7,431 nt of DNA from Clostridiales bacterium (lineage in GTDB: Bacteria > Bacillota > Clostridia > Oscillospirales > Oscillospiraceae): positions 1 through 7,431 of the forward strand of contig JAJQHP010000238.1 of the NCBI GenBank assembly GCA_021199695.1, read 5' to 3'. A program made the position numbers and the translations under genes. The first letter of the stretch is position 1. Each line of letters begins with the position of its first letter. Shown one piece after another: positions 1,758-7,431 of this stretch. The notes beneath the pieces are model-generated. The model saw only the letters and a program-made list of their open reading frames with translations, was not told the DNA's origin and ran no database searches.

Positions 1758-1837
1758 GGCAGCAGGGAGCGCAAAGAAGCTCTGATTTTACAGTCTTAGT
1801 CCATTTTATTGGACAGTGTTTTTGTTATAATCGGAGC

Positions 1838-1877
1838 AGAGAAAGAAAAGGCCCGGCGAAGCAAAACTTCACCGGGC
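1838..1877 (-). terminator. Rho-independent terminator of the crRNA-like RNA
   Basis: In minus-strand RNA, GCCCGG-U-GAAG pairs with CUUC-G-CCGGGC around a UUUUG loop (1851-1877), giving an 11-bp stem that includes one U-G wobble. It is followed by CUUUUCUUUCUCU (1850-1838). In + strand RNA the wobble becomes a C/A mismatch and no T-run follows, so the element works leftward only. It occupies the place where a second CRISPR repeat would normally sit. Confidence 0.85.
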
Positions 1878-1930
1878 AGCTGGAGACGTACATGATCCAA
1901 CAAACTTTTCAATCCACAGCTTGCGCTGAC
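1840..1930 (-). ncRNA. crRNA-like cas-regulating RNA (CreR/CreA-type), candidate
   Basis: A predicted RNA of about 90 nt starts near 1930 and ends in the T-rich tract near 1840. Read 5' to 3' it has three parts. First, a degenerate I-C repeat (1906-1930), whose stem CAGC/GCTG closes a GCAA loop and is followed by the 11-nt tail TGGATTGAAAA. Second, a spacer-like segment of about 28 nt (1905-1878) beginning GTTTGTTGGATCATGTA. Third, a terminator hairpin. Known I-C repeats end in GTGGATTGAAA plus one variable base, and Cas5c cuts at the 3' foot of the hairpin to leave an 11-nt handle; a cut after the stem here would leave exactly 11 nt. The spacer-like segment matches the cas5c promoter region beside a TTC PAM. 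The inferred role is to guide Cascade to repress the cas operon, as described for CreA/CreR RNAs and analogous to the long tracrRNA of some Cas9 loci. The RNA itself has not been demonstrated. Confidence 0.85.
1906..1930 (-). repeat. Solitary degenerate type I-C CRISPR repeat
   Basis: Reading the minus strand from 1930, the element begins GTC and forms a 4-bp stem CAGC/GCTG around the loop GCAA, a GNRA tetraloop. It ends with TGGATTGAAAA. The opening GTC and the GTGGATTGAAA end are the conserved edges of I-C repeats, which are usually about 32 nt. This copy is 25 nt because the stem-loop is shortened. It stands alone, since no second repeat follows the spacer-like segment. The loss is in the hairpin body, while the part read by Cas5c and kept as the crRNA 5' handle is intact. 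The array repeat of this genome is not in the window for comparison. Confidence 0.85.
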
Positions 1931-1936
1931 GTGTTA

Positions 1937-1965
1937 ATTATAACGCCTATGCTCAGGAAGCGCAA
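1937..1965 (-). promoter_or_regulatory. Promoter of the crRNA-like RNA
   Basis: On the minus strand a perfect -10 hexamer TATAAT (complement of 1937-1942) lies 17 bases downstream of TTGCGC (complement of 1960-1965), a weak -35 box (3 of 6 to TTGACA). Initiation 5 to 7 bases past the -10 would fall at 1932-1930, where the repeat-like GTC begins. The transcript would therefore start almost exactly at the repeat, with no leader. Confidence 0.75.
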
Positions 1966-2058
1966 GTAAAGCAAAGAAAAAGAAAGTGGGGACTGCCGGA
2001 GAATGCGTATAGCATAGTTCCCGTCAAATGAAAGCCTGGAAAAAAATAAAACTGAGCC

Positions 2059-2087
2059 TTGACATTTCTTCTTCTCCGCTGTATTAT
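2059..2087 (+). promoter_or_regulatory. Promoter of the cas5c-cas8c-cas7c-cas4-cas1-cas2 operon
   Basis: A consensus -35 box TTGACA (2059-2064) is separated by 17 bases from TATTAT (2082-2087), a near-consensus -10. An A-rich stretch lies upstream (around 2040-2050) and could act as an UP element. Initiation would fall near 2093-2095, leaving a leader of about 50 nt before cas5c. The predicted start point lies inside the protospacer-like site at 2091-2107. Confidence 0.8.
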
Positions 2088-2090
2088 TTT

Positions 2091-2110
2091 TACATAATCC
2101 ATCAAACGAA
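2091..2110 (-). promoter_or_regulatory. Cascade operator: protospacer with TTC PAM matched by the crRNA-like RNA
   Basis: On the minus strand TTC (complement of 2110-2108) is followed by GTTTGATGGATTATGTA (complement of 2107-2091). The spacer-like segment of the RNA reads GTTTGTTGGATCATGTA. They agree at 15 of 17 positions, differing only at 6 and 12; from position 18 onward the agreement falls to background. TTC is the established I-C PAM. The site starts four bases past the -10 box and covers the predicted transcription start, so bound Cascade should block initiation. The short match is expected to be too little for full R-loop formation and Cas3 attack. Confidence 0.85.
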
Positions 2111-2874: not shown

Positions 2875-4671
2875 ATGGGCCTGCTGCAAAAAGCCTGTGA
2901 AACCTATGACACCTTCCAGCATTTGGCCGGTGTAGAGATTCAGGACAAAGCCACTTTAGCTCCTCCTGGCTACAATTCCACCCGGGCGGACATTGAGATC
3001 ACGCTGGATCAGGACGGCGGCTTTCTGTCCGCCAGGGCGGTGGAGAAAACGGAGCCCAAAATCGTCATTCCGGTCACGGAGGACTCCGCCGGGCGCACCA
3101 GAGCGGCCTGCGCCCGCCCTCTGTGTGACCAGCTGGTTTATTTGGCCCCCTATGAGGAAAAGAAGCACGCCCTGTATGTGGAACAGCTGGCAGATTGGGC
3201 TGCGTCACCTTACAGTCATCCCCAACTGCCGCCGATTTTGACTTACATCCAGGGGGAGACAATTTTAGATGATCTTGTATGGACTGATGTGATTACTTTA
3301 AATGAAAAAGGGCAGCCCAAAAAAGATGATGCGCTGGTGCGCTGGGTGGTGCTGGGGTTGGACGCCGCCGACAGCGGGCCATGCTGGACGAACCGGGGGC
3401 TGACGGAATCGTTTCGTCGATACTACGCCAGTCGCAAAGAGGGCTGGCCGAAAAACCTCTGCATGGTCTCCGGAGACTGGGATGTGCTGGCCAGGCAGCA
3501 CATCAAGGGCATCATTCCCGCCAACGGTAACGCCAAGCTGATCTCCGCCAATGATGATAAAGGTTTTACCTATCGTGGCCGCTTTGATGAGAGCTGGCAG
3601 GCTGCCTCGGTGGGGTATACCGCCTCCCAAAAGGCACATAACGCCCTGCGCTGGCTGGCGGATAACCAGAGCGTCACCATGGGAGGAAGAACCTTCCTCT
3701 GCTGGAATCCCCAGGGGAAGGAGGTCCCATCCCCTACTAACGCAATGACCCGGCGGGGACATCGTAATCAGCCCAGCGCCAAAAATCCCACCGAATACCA
3801 AAAGCAGCTGCGGGAGACCCTCTCCGGCTGGAGGGCGGATCTGCCGGACAATGCGGACGTGGTCATCGCCGCCTTTGATGCGGCCACCACCGGGCGGCTG
3901 GCCCTGACCTATTATAACGAGCTCAAGGGCTCTGATTTCCTGCAACGACTGTACGACTGGGACGCCAGCTGCTGCTGGGTGAACGGCGGGTTCGGCGTTC
4001 AGTCCCCCGGCCTGTACTGGCTGGCGACCTGTGCATTTGGCAATTACCGGGAAGACAAATGGGCCGTAGACGACAGAATTTTAAAGCAGCAGATGCAGCG
4101 GCTGGTGGCCTGCCGGATAGACCGGGCCATCTTCCCGGTGGATGTAGAGCGCCTGCTGGTGCAGCGGGCATCCAATTTGCAGCTGCTGCCCCGGGAGGAG
4201 CGTCAACGGCTGTTGTTTCTCACCTGCGCCGCCATCCGAAAATACCATTATGACACCACAAAGGAGGAATACGGGATGTCATTGGACAAAAATAACACAG
4301 ACCGGAGCTATCTCTTTGGCCGGCTGCTGGCCATTGCAGAGGCGGTGGAGCGGAGCACCTACGATGACAAGGAGACCCGGGAGCCCAACGCCATCCGGCT
4401 GCAGTCGGTTTTTGCGCAGCGCCCGTTATACGTCTGGCGCATTTTGGAGGAACGGCTGATTCCCTATTACCAGAAGCTGCCACCGCGTCTGCGTGCGTAT
4501 TACCGAAACCAGGCAGATGAGATTATGGATAAACTTTCTCTGGACGATGAAACCCTGAATCGGAAGCTGGAGGATACCTATATATTGGGGTATCGGAACC
4601 AGCGAGCATATCGAACGCCAAAAGACGGCCCACAGGAAGCCGCAACCGAAACGACAACAGAAGGATTTTAA
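2875..4671 (+). CDS. cas8c: Cas8c (Csd1), large subunit of type I-C Cascade
   Basis: Cas8c reads the PAM, opens the target DNA and provides the surface that recruits Cas3. At 598 residues it fits the Csd1/Cas8c family. Family-typical stretches include the N-terminal MGLLQKACETYD and APPGYNS (residues 29-34) and the central block HIKGIIPANGNAKLISAND (209-227), YRGRF (233-237) and SVGYTASQKAHNALRWL (245-261). The start is an ATG placed immediately after the cas5c stop, with GGGAGG (2861-2866) 8 bases upstream inside the cas5c end. The stop TAA (4669-4671) overlaps the cas7c ribosome binding site. The C-terminal 131 codons carry their own start signal (see cas11c). The last 15 or so residues are rich in Thr and Glu and look like a flexible tail. 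Confidence 0.97.
   Translation: MGLLQKACETYDTFQHLAGVEIQDKATLAPPGYNSTRADIEITLDQDGGFLSARAVEKTEPKIVIPVTEDSAGRTRAACARPLCDQLVYLAPYEEKKHALYVEQLADWAASPYSHPQLPPILTYIQGETILDDLVWTDVITLNEKGQPKKDDALVRWVVLGLDAADSGPCWTNRGLTESFRRYYASRKEGWPKNLCMVSGDWDVLARQHIKGIIPANGNAKLISANDDKGFTYRGRFDESWQAASVGYTASQKAHNALRWLADNQSVTMGGRTFLCWNPQGKEVPSPTNAMTRRGHRNQPSAKNPTEYQKQLRETLSGWRADLPDNADVVIAAFDAATTGRLALTYYNELKGSDFLQRLYDWDASCCWVNGGFGVQSPGLYWLATCAFGNYREDKWAVDDRILKQQMQRLVACRIDRAIFPVDVERLLVQRASNLQLLPREERQRLLFLTCAAIRKYHYDTTKEEYGMSLDKNNTDRSYLFGRLLAIAEAVERSTYDDKETREPNAIRLQSVFAQRPLYVWRILEERLIPYYQKLPPRLRAYYRNQADEIMDKLSLDDETLNRKLEDTYILGYRNQRAYRTPKDGPQEAATETTTEGF
4261..4267 (+). promoter_or_regulatory. Internal Shine-Dalgarno for Cas11c within cas8c
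   Basis: AAGGAGG sits inside the cas8c coding sequence (codons for Lys-Glu-Glu in TTKEEYGM), 8 bases before an in-frame ATG at 4276. It is as strong as the site used by cas7c (AAGGAGG at 4670-4676, also 9 bases from the last G to the ATG counted inclusively of the start base), which supports real internal initiation. Confidence 0.75.
4276..4671 (+). CDS. cas11c: Cas11c, small subunit of Cascade from an internal start in cas8c
   Basis: Type I-C loci have no separate small-subunit gene. In studied systems the small subunit Cas11c is made by internal translation of the 3' part of cas8c and lines the belly of Cascade, stabilising the R-loop. Here Met468 of Cas8c (ATG 4276-4278, beginning MSLDKNNTDRSYLFGRLLAI) lies in frame 8 bases after AAGGAGG and would give a product of 131 residues, sharing the cas8c stop. 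The predicted protein looks mainly helical and is rich in Arg, Leu and Glu, as expected of the small subunit. Other internal Met codons nearby (for example in LKQQMQRL and in DEIMDKLS) lack a good ribosome binding site. The start is inferred from sequence; the protein has not been shown for this locus. Confidence 0.82.
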   Translation: MSLDKNNTDRSYLFGRLLAIAEAVERSTYDDKETREPNAIRLQSVFAQRPLYVWRILEERLIPYYQKLPPRLRAYYRNQADEIMDKLSLDDETLNRKLEDTYILGYRNQRAYRTPKDGPQEAATETTTEGF

Positions 4672-4685
4672 GGAGGTAACAGAAG

Positions 4686-5555
4686 ATGAGCGTATTACAG
4701 CATAAAATTGACTTCGTGGCCCTGATTTCCGTGACCATGGCTAACGCTAACGGGGATCCCCTGAACGGCAACAGTCCCCGCACCGACTACAATGGCTACG
4801 GGGAAATGTCCGACGTGTGCATCAAGCGAAAGATCCGCAACCGGATGCAGGACATGGGCAACCCCATCTTTGTCCAGTCGGAGGAGCGCTGCGACGACGG
4901 CTGCGCCAGCCTCAGTGAGCGGGCAAACAAGCTGCTGGGCAAGATGACCGATCGTGAGGCCTCCGCGAAGAAGGCCTGCGAAGCCTGGTTGGACGTGCGT
5001 TCCTTCGGGCAGGTGTTCGCTTTCAAGGACAGCAAGGGCAAGGATTCCAAGGGAAAGGAAACCAAGGGCGTTTCCGTGGGGGTCCGCGGCCCTGTCTCCA
5101 TCCACCAGGCGGTCAGCGTCTCCCCCATCCAGGTGGCGGATATGCAGATCACCAAAAGCGTCAACGGTGACAAGAGCGAAAAGCTCTCCTCTGACCGCAT
5201 GGGTATGAAGCACTTCGTCCGCTTCGGGCTGTACAAGGTTAAAGGCTCCATCAATGTGCAGCTGGCGGAAAAGACCGGCTTCACCCAAGCGGATGCAGAG
5301 ACGGTGAAGGAGTGTCTGCGGACGCTCTTCGTCAACGACGCCTCCTCCGCCCGTCCGGACGGCTCCATGGAGGTGGTACGGCTCTACTGGTGGGAGCACA
5401 ACTGCAAAGACGGCCAGTATTCCTCTGCCCGGGTGCATCGCTCTGTTAAAGTGACACAAAAGAACCCCTCCGCCCTGCCCGCCTCGGTGGAGGACTATGA
5501 GATCACCCTGGAGCCGCTGCCCGGTCTGGAGCCGGAAGTGATTGATGGCATTTGA
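4686..5555 (+). CDS. cas7c: Cas7c (Csd2), crRNA-binding backbone subunit of Cascade
   Basis: Several copies of Cas7 polymerise along the spacer part of the crRNA. Each copy's thumb kinks the crRNA-DNA hybrid so that every sixth base flips out. The protein has 289 residues, usual for Csd2. Motifs are ANGDP (21-25), DVRSFGQVFA (103-112) and GVRGPVSIHQA (132-142), all characteristic of the Cas7 I-C/I-B group. The ATG at 4686 follows AAGGAGGT (4670-4677) by 8 bases; this site overlaps the cas8c stop and is among the strongest in the operon, which fits the high copy number of Cas7 per complex. A short Lys-rich DSKGK duplication lies between the second and third motifs. The stop at 5553-5555 lies inside the start of cas4. 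Confidence 0.97.
   Translation: MSVLQHKIDFVALISVTMANANGDPLNGNSPRTDYNGYGEMSDVCIKRKIRNRMQDMGNPIFVQSEERCDDGCASLSERANKLLGKMTDREASAKKACEAWLDVRSFGQVFAFKDSKGKDSKGKETKGVSVGVRGPVSIHQAVSVSPIQVADMQITKSVNGDKSEKLSSDRMGMKHFVRFGLYKVKGSINVQLAEKTGFTQADAETVKECLRTLFVNDASSARPDGSMEVVRLYWWEHNCKDGQYSSARVHRSVKVTQKNPSALPASVEDYEITLEPLPGLEPEVIDGI
5028..5057 (+). repeat. Five-codon tandem repeat (DSKGK x2) inside cas7c
   Basis: Residues 115-124 of Cas7c read DSKGK twice, followed by ETKGV, a third partial echo. The codons differ between the copies (GAC AGC AAG GGC AAG against GAT TCC AAG GGA AAG), so the duplication is old or the two units arose separately. The Lys/Gly/Ser composition suggests an exposed flexible loop, possibly touching nucleic acid. 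Confidence 0.55.
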
Positions 5556-6201
5556 CGAGGACGAATACCTGCAACTCTCCGGCATCCAGCACTTCATCTT
5601 CTGCCGCCGCCAGTGGGCCCTCATCCACCTGGAGCAGCAGTGGGCGGAAAATCTGCGCACTGCCGAGGGGGAGCTGCTCCACAAAAACGCCCACGACGCG
5701 GAGCAGCGGACCCTCCGGGGCAACCTGCTGACCGTCCGGGCCATGCGGGTACACTCCGCCCGGCTGGGTCTCTCCGGGGAGTGCGACGTAGTGGAGTTCC
5801 GGCGTTCCGCGGAGGGAGTGCCGTTGGCAGGAGAAAAGGGCCTGTGGCTGCCTTACCCCGTGGAGTACAAGCGGGGCCGAGCCAAGCCCACCGCCTGCGA
5901 CGAGGCTCAGCTCTGCGCCCAGGCCATGTGCCTGGAGGAGATGCTGTGCTGCACGGTTCCGGAGGGGGCGCTGTTCTACGGCCAGCCCCGGCGGCGGCAG
6001 GAGGTGACCTTCACCCGGTCGCTGCGGACGCTGGTGGAAGACGCCGCCCAGGAGATGCATCAGCTGTTTCAGCGGGGGTACACCCCTAAGAGCAAGCCCT
6101 CCAAGGGATGCAATGCCTGCTCGCTGAAGGATTTGTGCCTGCCCCGGCTGGCCAAAGCGCCCAGCGTGTCGGACTATCTGAGAGGGGAGCTGAACGAGTA
6201 G
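5545..6201 (+). CDS. cas4: Cas4, iron-sulfur RecB-like exonuclease for spacer acquisition
   Basis: Cas4 works with Cas1-Cas2 to trim prespacers and select those next to a correct PAM. The preferred start is ATG 5545 (MAFDEDEYLQLSG, 218 residues), with GGAAG 6 bases upstream; a TTG at 5542 would add one residue and is less likely. Four Cys expected to bind a 4Fe-4S cluster are present: Cys20 in FIFCRRQW and Cys189, Cys192 and Cys198 in GCNACSLKDLCLP. RecB-type nuclease residues visible are His46 (LLHKNAHD), Asp81 (GECDVVEF), Glu107 and Lys109 (PVEYKRG) and Gln122 (DEAQLCAQAM), so it should be active. It overlaps the end of cas7c by 11 bases and its TAG shares one base with the cas1 GTG, which points to coupled translation. 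Confidence 0.97.
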   Translation: MAFDEDEYLQLSGIQHFIFCRRQWALIHLEQQWAENLRTAEGELLHKNAHDAEQRTLRGNLLTVRAMRVHSARLGLSGECDVVEFRRSAEGVPLAGEKGLWLPYPVEYKRGRAKPTACDEAQLCAQAMCLEEMLCCTVPEGALFYGQPRRRQEVTFTRSLRTLVEDAAQEMHQLFQRGYTPKSKPSKGCNACSLKDLCLPRLAKAPSVSDYLRGELNE

Positions 6202-7232
6202 TGAGACATCTGCTGAACACCCTTTTCGTCACCGTAGAGGACGCCTTTGCCACCCTGGACGGGGAAAATGTGGTGATCCGCCGGGAGGATGAGATCCTGG
6301 GCCGGTTTCCGCTCCACATTTTAGAGGGTATTTTCCTGTTCACCTATCCCGGTGCCTCCCCCGCCCTGATGGGCAAATGCGCCCGGGAGGACGTGAATCT
6401 GGTCTTTCTGACCCCCAGAGGGCGGTTTCTGGCCCGCACCTGCGGTATGAGCCAGGGCAATGTGCTGCTCCGCCGCACCCAGTACCGGGCGGCGGACGAC
6501 CCGCTGCAGAGCTGCCGCATCGCCCGGAACATGATCTTCGGCAAGCTGAGCAACGCCCGGCAGGTGCTGGACCGTGCCCGCCGGGATCACGGCCCCCGCA
6601 TCGACGTGCAGCGCTTCCAGACGGTTTCCGACCAGCTCCGGGGACTGCTGCCCCAGGTGCTGGAGGAAACCTCGCTGGACGCCCTGCGGGGGTTGGAGGG
6701 CGCCGGGGCCAACGCCTATTTTGGCCTGCTCGACGACATGATTTTGCGCAGCAAGGACGTGTTCTTCTTCCACGGGAGGAACCGCCGTCCGCCCCTGGAC
6801 AGGGTCAACGCCCTGCTGTCCTTTGTCTACACCATGCTGGGCAACGAGTGCGCCTCGGCTCTGGAGATGGTGGGGCTGGACGCTTATGTGGGCTTTCTCC
6901 ACCGGGACCGCCCGGGGCGGACCTCTCTGGCCCAGGATCTGCTGGAGGAGCTGCGGCCCTGCATGGCGGACCGCTTCGCCCTGACCCTCATCAACAACCA
7001 GGAGATCTCCGGCAAGGACTTTGAGGAGCAGGAGAACGGCGCCGTTTTCCTGACTGCCGAGGGCCGCAAAAAGGTCCAGCGGGCCTGGCAGGAGCGAAAG
7101 CAGGTCGTCATCACCCACCCGTTTTTGAAGGAAAAGCTGCCCTGGGGTCTGGTCCCCTATGTGCAGGCGTTGCTGCTGACCCGGTACCTCCGGGGCGATC
7201 TGGACGGCTATCCGCCGTTTCTGTGGAAGTGA
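6201..7232 (+). CDS. cas1: Cas1, spacer integrase (type I-C)
   Basis: Cas1 with Cas2 inserts new spacers at the leader end of the array. The chosen start is GTG 6201, overlapping the cas4 stop as TAGTG, giving 343 residues, the usual I-C length, beginning MRHLLNTLFVTVEDAFATLDG. The frame is open further upstream to 6108, but that extension lies wholly inside cas4 and does not resemble Cas1. A GGGGAG ribosome binding site (6184-6189) lies 11 bases upstream. The likely metal-binding catalytic residues are Glu166 (GLEGAGANAYF), His234 (VGFLHRDRPGR) and Glu249 (AQDLLEELRP), with conserved GLDAYVGFLH and NALLSFVYTML around them. All are intact, so integrase activity is expected. The TGA lies 7 bases before cas2. 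Confidence 0.97.
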   Translation: MRHLLNTLFVTVEDAFATLDGENVVIRREDEILGRFPLHILEGIFLFTYPGASPALMGKCAREDVNLVFLTPRGRFLARTCGMSQGNVLLRRTQYRAADDPLQSCRIARNMIFGKLSNARQVLDRARRDHGPRIDVQRFQTVSDQLRGLLPQVLEETSLDALRGLEGAGANAYFGLLDDMILRSKDVFFFHGRNRRPPLDRVNALLSFVYTMLGNECASALEMVGLDAYVGFLHRDRPGRTSLAQDLLEELRPCMADRFALTLINNQEISGKDFEEQENGAVFLTAEGRKKVQRAWQERKQVVITHPFLKEKLPWGLVPYVQALLLTRYLRGDLDGYPPFLWK

Positions 7233-7239
7233 GGCCGGT

Positions 7240-7431
7240 ATGCTTGTCGTCATTACCTACGATGTCAACACCGCAGACGCCGCCGGACAGCGCCGCCTGC
7301 GCAAGCTGGCCAAGCAGTGCGTGAACTACGGCCAACGGGTACAAAACTCCGTGTTTGAGTGCTCTCTGGATGCTGCTCAGTACCGCTTGCTCAAGGCGAA
7401 GCTGTGGGATATGATAGACCCAGAGCGGGAC
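7240..7431 (+). CDS. cas2: Cas2, adaptation complex scaffold, 3'-truncated by window edge
   Basis: Cas2 dimers bridge two Cas1 dimers in the integration complex. The first 64 codons are present, beginning MLVVITYDVNT and running to the window end in MIDPERD. The family is usually about 96 residues, so about a third is missing. Asp8 at the end of the first strand (ITYD) is the conserved Cas2 metal-site residue. NYGQRVQNSVFECSL is the second typical block. The ATG follows the cas1 stop by 7 bases, with GAGG (7231-7234) 5 bases upstream. The CRISPR leader and array usually follow directly in this subtype. Confidence 0.95.
   Translation, partial: MLVVITYDVNTADAAGQRRLRKLAKQCVNYGQRVQNSVFECSLDAAQYRLLKAKLWDMIDPERD

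Follow-up and report, generated by a model that had tools for sequence, protein, structure and literature searches.

The question raised by this locus is why a short minus-strand unit that resembles a single piece of a CRISPR array lies between cas3 and cas5c of a type I-C operon. The window, meaning the whole stretch of 7,431 nt that was analysed, is one whole contig and belongs to an incomplete genome (68% complete). Profile matches identified the following operon genes on the plus strand: the 3' part of cas3 (3-1757; TIGR01587 cas3_core, above the cut-off; the contig starts inside the gene), cas5c (2146-2874; TIGR01876, 244 bits), cas8c (2875-4671; TIGR01863), cas7c (4686-5555; TIGR02589), cas4 (5542-6201; TIGR00372; a listed ORF with a TTG start), cas1c (6201-7232; TIGR03640) and the 5' part of cas2 (7240-7431; TIGR01573; the contig stops inside the gene). 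The start of cas1c was placed at the probable GTG at 6201; the listed ORF spans 6108-7232 and the match begins at residue 35. The cas3-cas5c gap is 388 nt long, with the unit on its minus strand and a cas5c promoter-like site on its right side. A pattern scan found a terminator-like hairpin 3' of cas3 (1799-1814, plus strand), and we infer that cas3 is a separate transcription unit. A TATAAT-like plus-strand box follows this hairpin (1799-1831), is similar across the seven related gaps aligned below, and might drive an antisense RNA through the unit.

The unit occupies 1841-1965 on the minus strand. The initial annotation had described a promoter, an I-C-like repeat, a spacer-like segment and a terminator, and all four parts were found where it had placed them. 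The promoter-like site (1937-1965) has a -35 box TTGCGC (1960-1965), a spacing of 17 nt and a -10 box TATAAT (1937-1942). It is a call by consensus match alone, being absent from the sites of the first consensus scan and scoring 9/12 in a looser one. The repeat-like stretch that follows is GTCAGCGCAAGCTGTGGATTGAAAA (1930-1906). Its 5' half, GTCAGCGCAAGCT (1918-1930), is predicted to fold together with the following G into a 4-pair hairpin, CAGC-GCAA-GCTG. The 5' handle of the type I-C repeat, GTGGATTGAAAA, comes next (1906-1917), and GTGGATTGAAA also closes the array repeat GTCGCTCCTCTTGCGGGAGCGTGGATTGAAAT of a relative whose Cas5c is 95% identical. Compared with that array repeat, the window repeat retains GTC and the handle without the stem; the relative's array was used here, and the window's own array was not assembled. 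Repeats outside arrays are typically degenerate, according to the available portion of PMC9458426, and the window repeat is likewise.

Behind the handle are a 17-nt guide, GTTTGTTGGATCATGTA (1889-1905), and a guide tail with little match to the target (1878-1888). The unit is closed by a predicted terminator (1841-1877) with a 12-pair stem (1877-1851), eight pairs of which are G-C, and a T-rich tail (1850-1841). Folding of the RNA from 1930 to 1843 gave z = -4.0, and its largest helix is the terminator stem. Rfam covariance models run against 1750-2200 produced 0 matches up to E = 1. The handle has one exact copy in the genome and one copy at ≤1 mismatch in the surrounding stretch. Classification as a CRISPR array, with at least two repeats flanking spacers, was considered and rejected on account of the single handle. 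What the locus contains is a repeat-derived, crRNA-like unit outside an array yet inside a cas locus, a property of CreR RNAs.

The guide has a partner at the other end of the gap. The cas5c promoter-like site (2059-2087, plus strand) consists of TTGACA (2059-2064), 17 nt and TATTAT (2082-2087), and matches the consensus at 11/12 positions. Directly past its -10 box lies the target (protospacer) GTTTGATGGATTATGTA (2091-2107, minus strand), beside a TTC PAM (2108-2110, minus strand) that is invariant in 7/7 aligned gaps. TTC is a published I-C PAM in the part of PMC8406640 available to us. Guide and target are identical at 15/17 positions, which reproduces the match first claimed, and the mismatches are confined to positions 6 and 12. 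These are the positions that do not pair in type I complexes. The second CreR property, a PAM-adjacent partial match to a cas promoter, is thus present as well, the promoter itself being a consensus call.

Such a match could in principle be an accident. The initial annotation had set its chance at about 1 in 10^9 per site, which is too low; by arithmetic at even base use, the chance of at least 15/17 is ∼7e-8 per site. The gap has 17 TTC sites, and 2/200,000 shuffled guides (∼1e-5) reached 15/17 at one or another of them. Despite the corrected figure, the match is unlikely to be chance. This bears on the idea that the unit is what remains, without function, of a decayed CRISPR array, its spacer matching the promoter by accident. 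A single repeat beside cas genes could be a relic of this kind, and most surveyed cas loci are without one. The shuffling result argues against it, as do the relatives described below, and we regard it as highly improbable.

The genome was also searched for other targets. The single site within two mismatches of TTCGTTTGNTGGATNATG in this 68% complete genome is the 2107-2091 target itself. The result speaks against the guide acting chiefly on a gene elsewhere, with the cas5c match secondary, although at 68% completeness another target could be missing. The guide might alternatively tune chiefly its own promoter, as the targets of L038, L047 and L101 appear to lie between divergent unit and cas promoters. 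In the window, however, the target sits directly past the cas5c -10 box and ∼125 nt from the unit promoter. Either version is extremely unlikely in our judgement.

Relatives were then compared. Within the genus, 14/32 genomes have a Cas5c match, the window's own included. Five relatives (L003-L007) with Cas5c 88-95% identical retain the gap and the unit, the unit of L005 being damaged, and a sixth, L031 (Cas5c 88%), came from a scan of genome contigs. Mean identity over the seven-gap alignment is 99% for the handle, 89% for the terminator stem, 86% for the guide and 87% for the target, against 67% for the stretch from the unit to the cas promoter and 62% for the leader. The promoter-like site and terminator are kept in 6/7 gaps, which is not what an array relic would predict.

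Alignment of relatives had been proposed as a way to see whether guide and target co-vary, and they do. The L031 guide ATTTGATGGGCAGTATA and target ATTTGATGGGCTGTATA differ from the window guide and target by identical changes at positions 1, 10, 11, 13 and 15 in both partners, while positions 6 and 12 changed in the guide only. L006 has a change at position 10, and L030 one at position 5, in both guide and target. This co-variation is a further argument against an array leftover with an accidental match. Relatives that keep the repeat and terminator and lose the match had been named in advance as counter-evidence. Two loci come near to this. In L030 (same contig as L007) the first five positions are kept, yet 10/15 scored positions (1-17 minus 6 and 12) match. 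In L029 (same contig as L005) the promoter-like site of the unit and the 5' half of the repeat are gone through a 37-bp deletion, and the target matches at 13/15 scored positions, poorer than in L006. L029, upstream of 8001, is perhaps a natural loss case.

Within this clade the arrangement appears confined to the gap. No handle was found upstream of cas3 in L027-L031, and no second target with at least 13/15 scored positions was found in these loci, the best others having 9 to 12. Sites with 12/15 scored positions occur in L029 (PAM CTC) and L031 (PAM GTC). One genome, G013, has two I-C loci, L007 (Cas5c 88%) and L016 (59% to the window), and the gap and unit are present only in L007.

A CreTA-like addiction module was considered as an alternative. 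In such a module the guide would repress a small toxin expressed from that promoter, with the cas genes as downstream passengers. The sole candidate noticed in the window is a three-codon mini-ORF, ATG CAA TGA (2141-2149), with a GGAGG ribosome site; it overlaps the cas5c start. Mini-ORF and ribosome site (2129-2149) are present in 7/7 aligned clade gaps, and their exact sequence occurs at the cas5c start of 5/80 loci (the best 80 listed), all from the window's clade. Very short toxins have precedent: the CreT ORF of H. hispanica comprises four codons (PMC8501985, available part), and a putative type I-E CreTA between cas3 and casA is described for Citrobacter rodentium in the available text of PMC12055562. 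Elsewhere in our survey, L104 and L081 each have a small ORF, of two and 14 codons respectively, that carries a ribosome site and lies in the stretch from the target to the cas3 start. Against a toxin, the mini-ORF shares the leader and overlaps the cas5c start, which leaves no room for a separate transcript. Among 10 gapless units examined for translated toxins, 8 lack any small ORF equipped with a ribosome site in the stretch from the target to the likely cas3 start, the starts being chosen by a simple rule. We consider an addiction module very unlikely.

The wider survey comprised the best 80 Cas5c loci listed from genome contigs plus the window, L006 and L014 (83 loci). The cas3-cas5c gap is ≤56 nt in 71/80 of the best 80 loci listed. 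All gaps of at least 150 nt in the 83-locus survey contain the handle (9/9), eight of them exactly and L014 with one change. Some gapless loci have the unit 5' of cas3; the guide there is unrelated, and it too matches a site of its own near promoter-like sequence. Targets in other loci precede a -35-like box or are flanked by divergent promoter-like sites. Recurrence of an identical layout with unrelated guides is difficult to reconcile with a decayed array.

A strict scan was applied in which GATTGAAA with ≤1 change, a TTC PAM and a match at ≥13 of 15 positions (1-17 minus 6 and 12) were required. The 78 scanned regions were the 9 gaps and 69 regions upstream of cas3; 11/80 loci gave no region because cas3 was not found or its start was off the contig. 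The scan passed 16/78 regions, comprising 7/9 gaps and 9/69 regions upstream of cas3, and 60/69 regions upstream of cas3 have no unit by this rule. Control scans of the same 78 regions with six other PAMs produced 0, 1, 0, 0, 0 and 0 passes (the single one with GAA), five altered handles produced 0, and three shuffles produced 0, 0 and 0. L040 (17/17, PAM TTT), L014 (PAM CTC), L030, L094 and L103 fail the strict scan.

At the level of the phylum, 103/398 genomes have a Cas5c family match, and 60 stretches were taken and scanned. A 14-of-15 rule passed 4/60, of which three are plausible (L143, L148 and L191). The fourth, L195, is probably chance; its handle is imperfect and unit and target are ∼670 nt apart. 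In control scans of the 60 stretches, six PAMs yielded 0 passes and four altered handles 0, 0, 0 and 1. Plasmids gave 33 records with a match, and six were read. In one, the Paenibacillus amylolyticus plasmid L202, a unit of repeat, guide and terminator lies within the 536 nt that separate cas3 from cas5c; it is a weak case, its match being confined to positions 1-5 and 7-9 (10/15 scored). No convincing unit was found in the other five records read. With three plausible loci in 60 stretches and one weak case in six plasmids, the unit is therefore patchy in its distribution. The plasmids L199 (Lysinibacillus sphaericus) and L200 (Lacticaseibacillus paracasei) carry cas5c, cas8c and cas7c with no cas3 in the stretch read, for which the gene table is incomplete. 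In L099 (Caproiciproducens faecalis, 15748-15800) the spacer between the last two array repeats matches a site upstream of cas3, beside TTC, at 14 of the first 15 positions. It is perhaps a self-silencing guide kept within an array.

The mismatches seen in the window recur across these loci. To examine them, guide-target pairs were selected in a position-blind manner (≥13/17 beside TTC), and 17 regions were reduced to 13 pairs by dropping the clade copies L006, L027, L028 and L029 and retaining L031. Independence among the 13 pairs is close to complete, the exception being the window and L031, which belong to a single clade; L097 is weak. In these pairs 17/25 mismatches fall at position 6 or 12 (binomial p ∼7e-11). 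In the 12 pairs left when L097 was dropped, matching is 98% at positions 1-17 minus 6 and 12, a figure shaped by selection because 13 of 15 was required, 29% at positions 6 and 12, and 25% at positions 18-34. Positions 6 and 12 and all positions past 18 look like chance, and the 29% and 25% figures are unselected. As matches below the cut can be shorter (L094, L103 and L202), position 17 or 18 is an upper and not an exact end of the match. The guides of L065 and L072 match at 18/18 and 17/17, positions 6 and 12 included, and are possibly young guides copied from the promoter.

Taken together, the unit at 1841-1965 is likely to encode an RNA of the CreR type, which would direct the Cascade of this same operon to the cas5c promoter region for repression. 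We assign this reading a probability of roughly 0.88 on the sequence evidence. The autorepressor reading of the initial annotation is supported as the best one. Judging from the consensus promoter and hairpin, the transcript would run from about 1930, where the repeat begins, to the terminator. Cas5c, which we take to be the processing nuclease, would cleave the CAGC-GCAA-GCUG hairpin at its base and leave UGGAUUGAAAA, a handle of 11 nt, which is the I-C length. Cascade loaded with this RNA would then open the DNA at 2091-2107, at the start site directly past the -10 box. By its geometry, a full-length complex would cover the -10 box as well.

Because the match stops at position 17, full activation of Cas3 is not expected, and the promoter would be blocked and not cut. 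Limited pairing would fit binding without cutting. By analogy with known CreRs, array crRNAs or anti-CRISPRs may relieve repression: they would take up Cascade, less of it would remain free, and the operon would be derepressed. The hairpin after cas3 and the separate cas5c promoter suggest that in the window's clade cas3 is seemingly outside this loop.

We also lean, with some reserve, towards a broader proposal. I-C systems of Bacillota may carry a patchy, far-flung family of fast-turning self-silencing guides that obey a pairing code, with at most three 5-bp segments beside TTC, positions 6 and 12 free and nothing past 17 or 18. Under this code Cascade could occupy its own promoter while leaving Cas3 unlicensed. 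The entire switch would, in the window's clade, lie in the cas3-cas5c gap, so that Cascade and the adaptation genes would be self-limited and cas3 would not. If this is true, evolution would have written out a pairing that represses without cutting, spanning 17 positions with no more than 15 scored bases. It would supply I-C gene silencing with a ready-made design rule and serve as a natural test for the R-loop length needed before Cas3 is recruited. The clade with cas3 seemingly outside the loop also raises the question of why Cascade should be held down and the nuclease not.

Several known systems resemble this one. The guide in SpyCas9 autorepression is a long tracrRNA. That system is type II and uses a single protein, in contrast to the type I-C Cascade here. 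It is similar in that a CRISPR effector shuts its own promoter and Acr proteins relieve the repression (PMC13131331, available part). Racrs, the RNA anti-CRISPRs of phages, share the solitary repeat unit, as far as the available part of PMC10651486 describes them. They are viral, whereas the present unit is found in a bacterial genome, flanked by cas3 and cas5c. Identity with a Racr was rejected: the locus is a bacterial cas locus, and the exact 19-nt guide had 0 matches among viral contigs.

CreA of the I-B CreTA modules of H. hispanica and H. hubeiense is similar in its pairing, with a TTC PAM, positions 1-5 and 7-11 paired and 6 and 12 free. In H. hubeiense, pairing of 1-5 and 7-11 beside TTC is reported for CreA, and changes at 6 and 12 are tolerated. 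CreA of H. hispanica also shares the one-repeat form closed by a terminator (all from the accessible text of PMC8501985). CreA keeps a toxin RNA repressed, whereas in this locus cas5c is the first complete gene downstream of the targeted promoter.

The closest likeness is to CreR, a crRNA-like RNA from a mini-CRISPR that partially matches a cas promoter and mediates autorepression (PMC12737573 and PMC13131331, in the portions available); the present unit is predicted to do likewise. CreRs are described for types I-B, I-E and V-A in the available text of PMC13131331, and their feedback and its relief by crRNAs or anti-CRISPRs are told in reviews (PMC12737573, PMC13131331 and PMC12948488, each as far as available). 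No type I-C CreR was found in the literature searched, the original CreR paper (Cell Host Microbe 2023) lying outside it. According to the available part of PMC12737573, CreR is widespread among type I systems, and I-C cases may therefore have been listed before. The present unit differs from the known CreRs in its subtype, I-C, in having one short repeat closed by a terminator, in its place in the cas3-cas5c gap, and in a match that reaches position 17 at longest. From sequence comparison, our best reading is that the unit is a further case of the CreR type, with an unusually clean pairing pattern and a mechanism already known for I-B, I-E and V-A.
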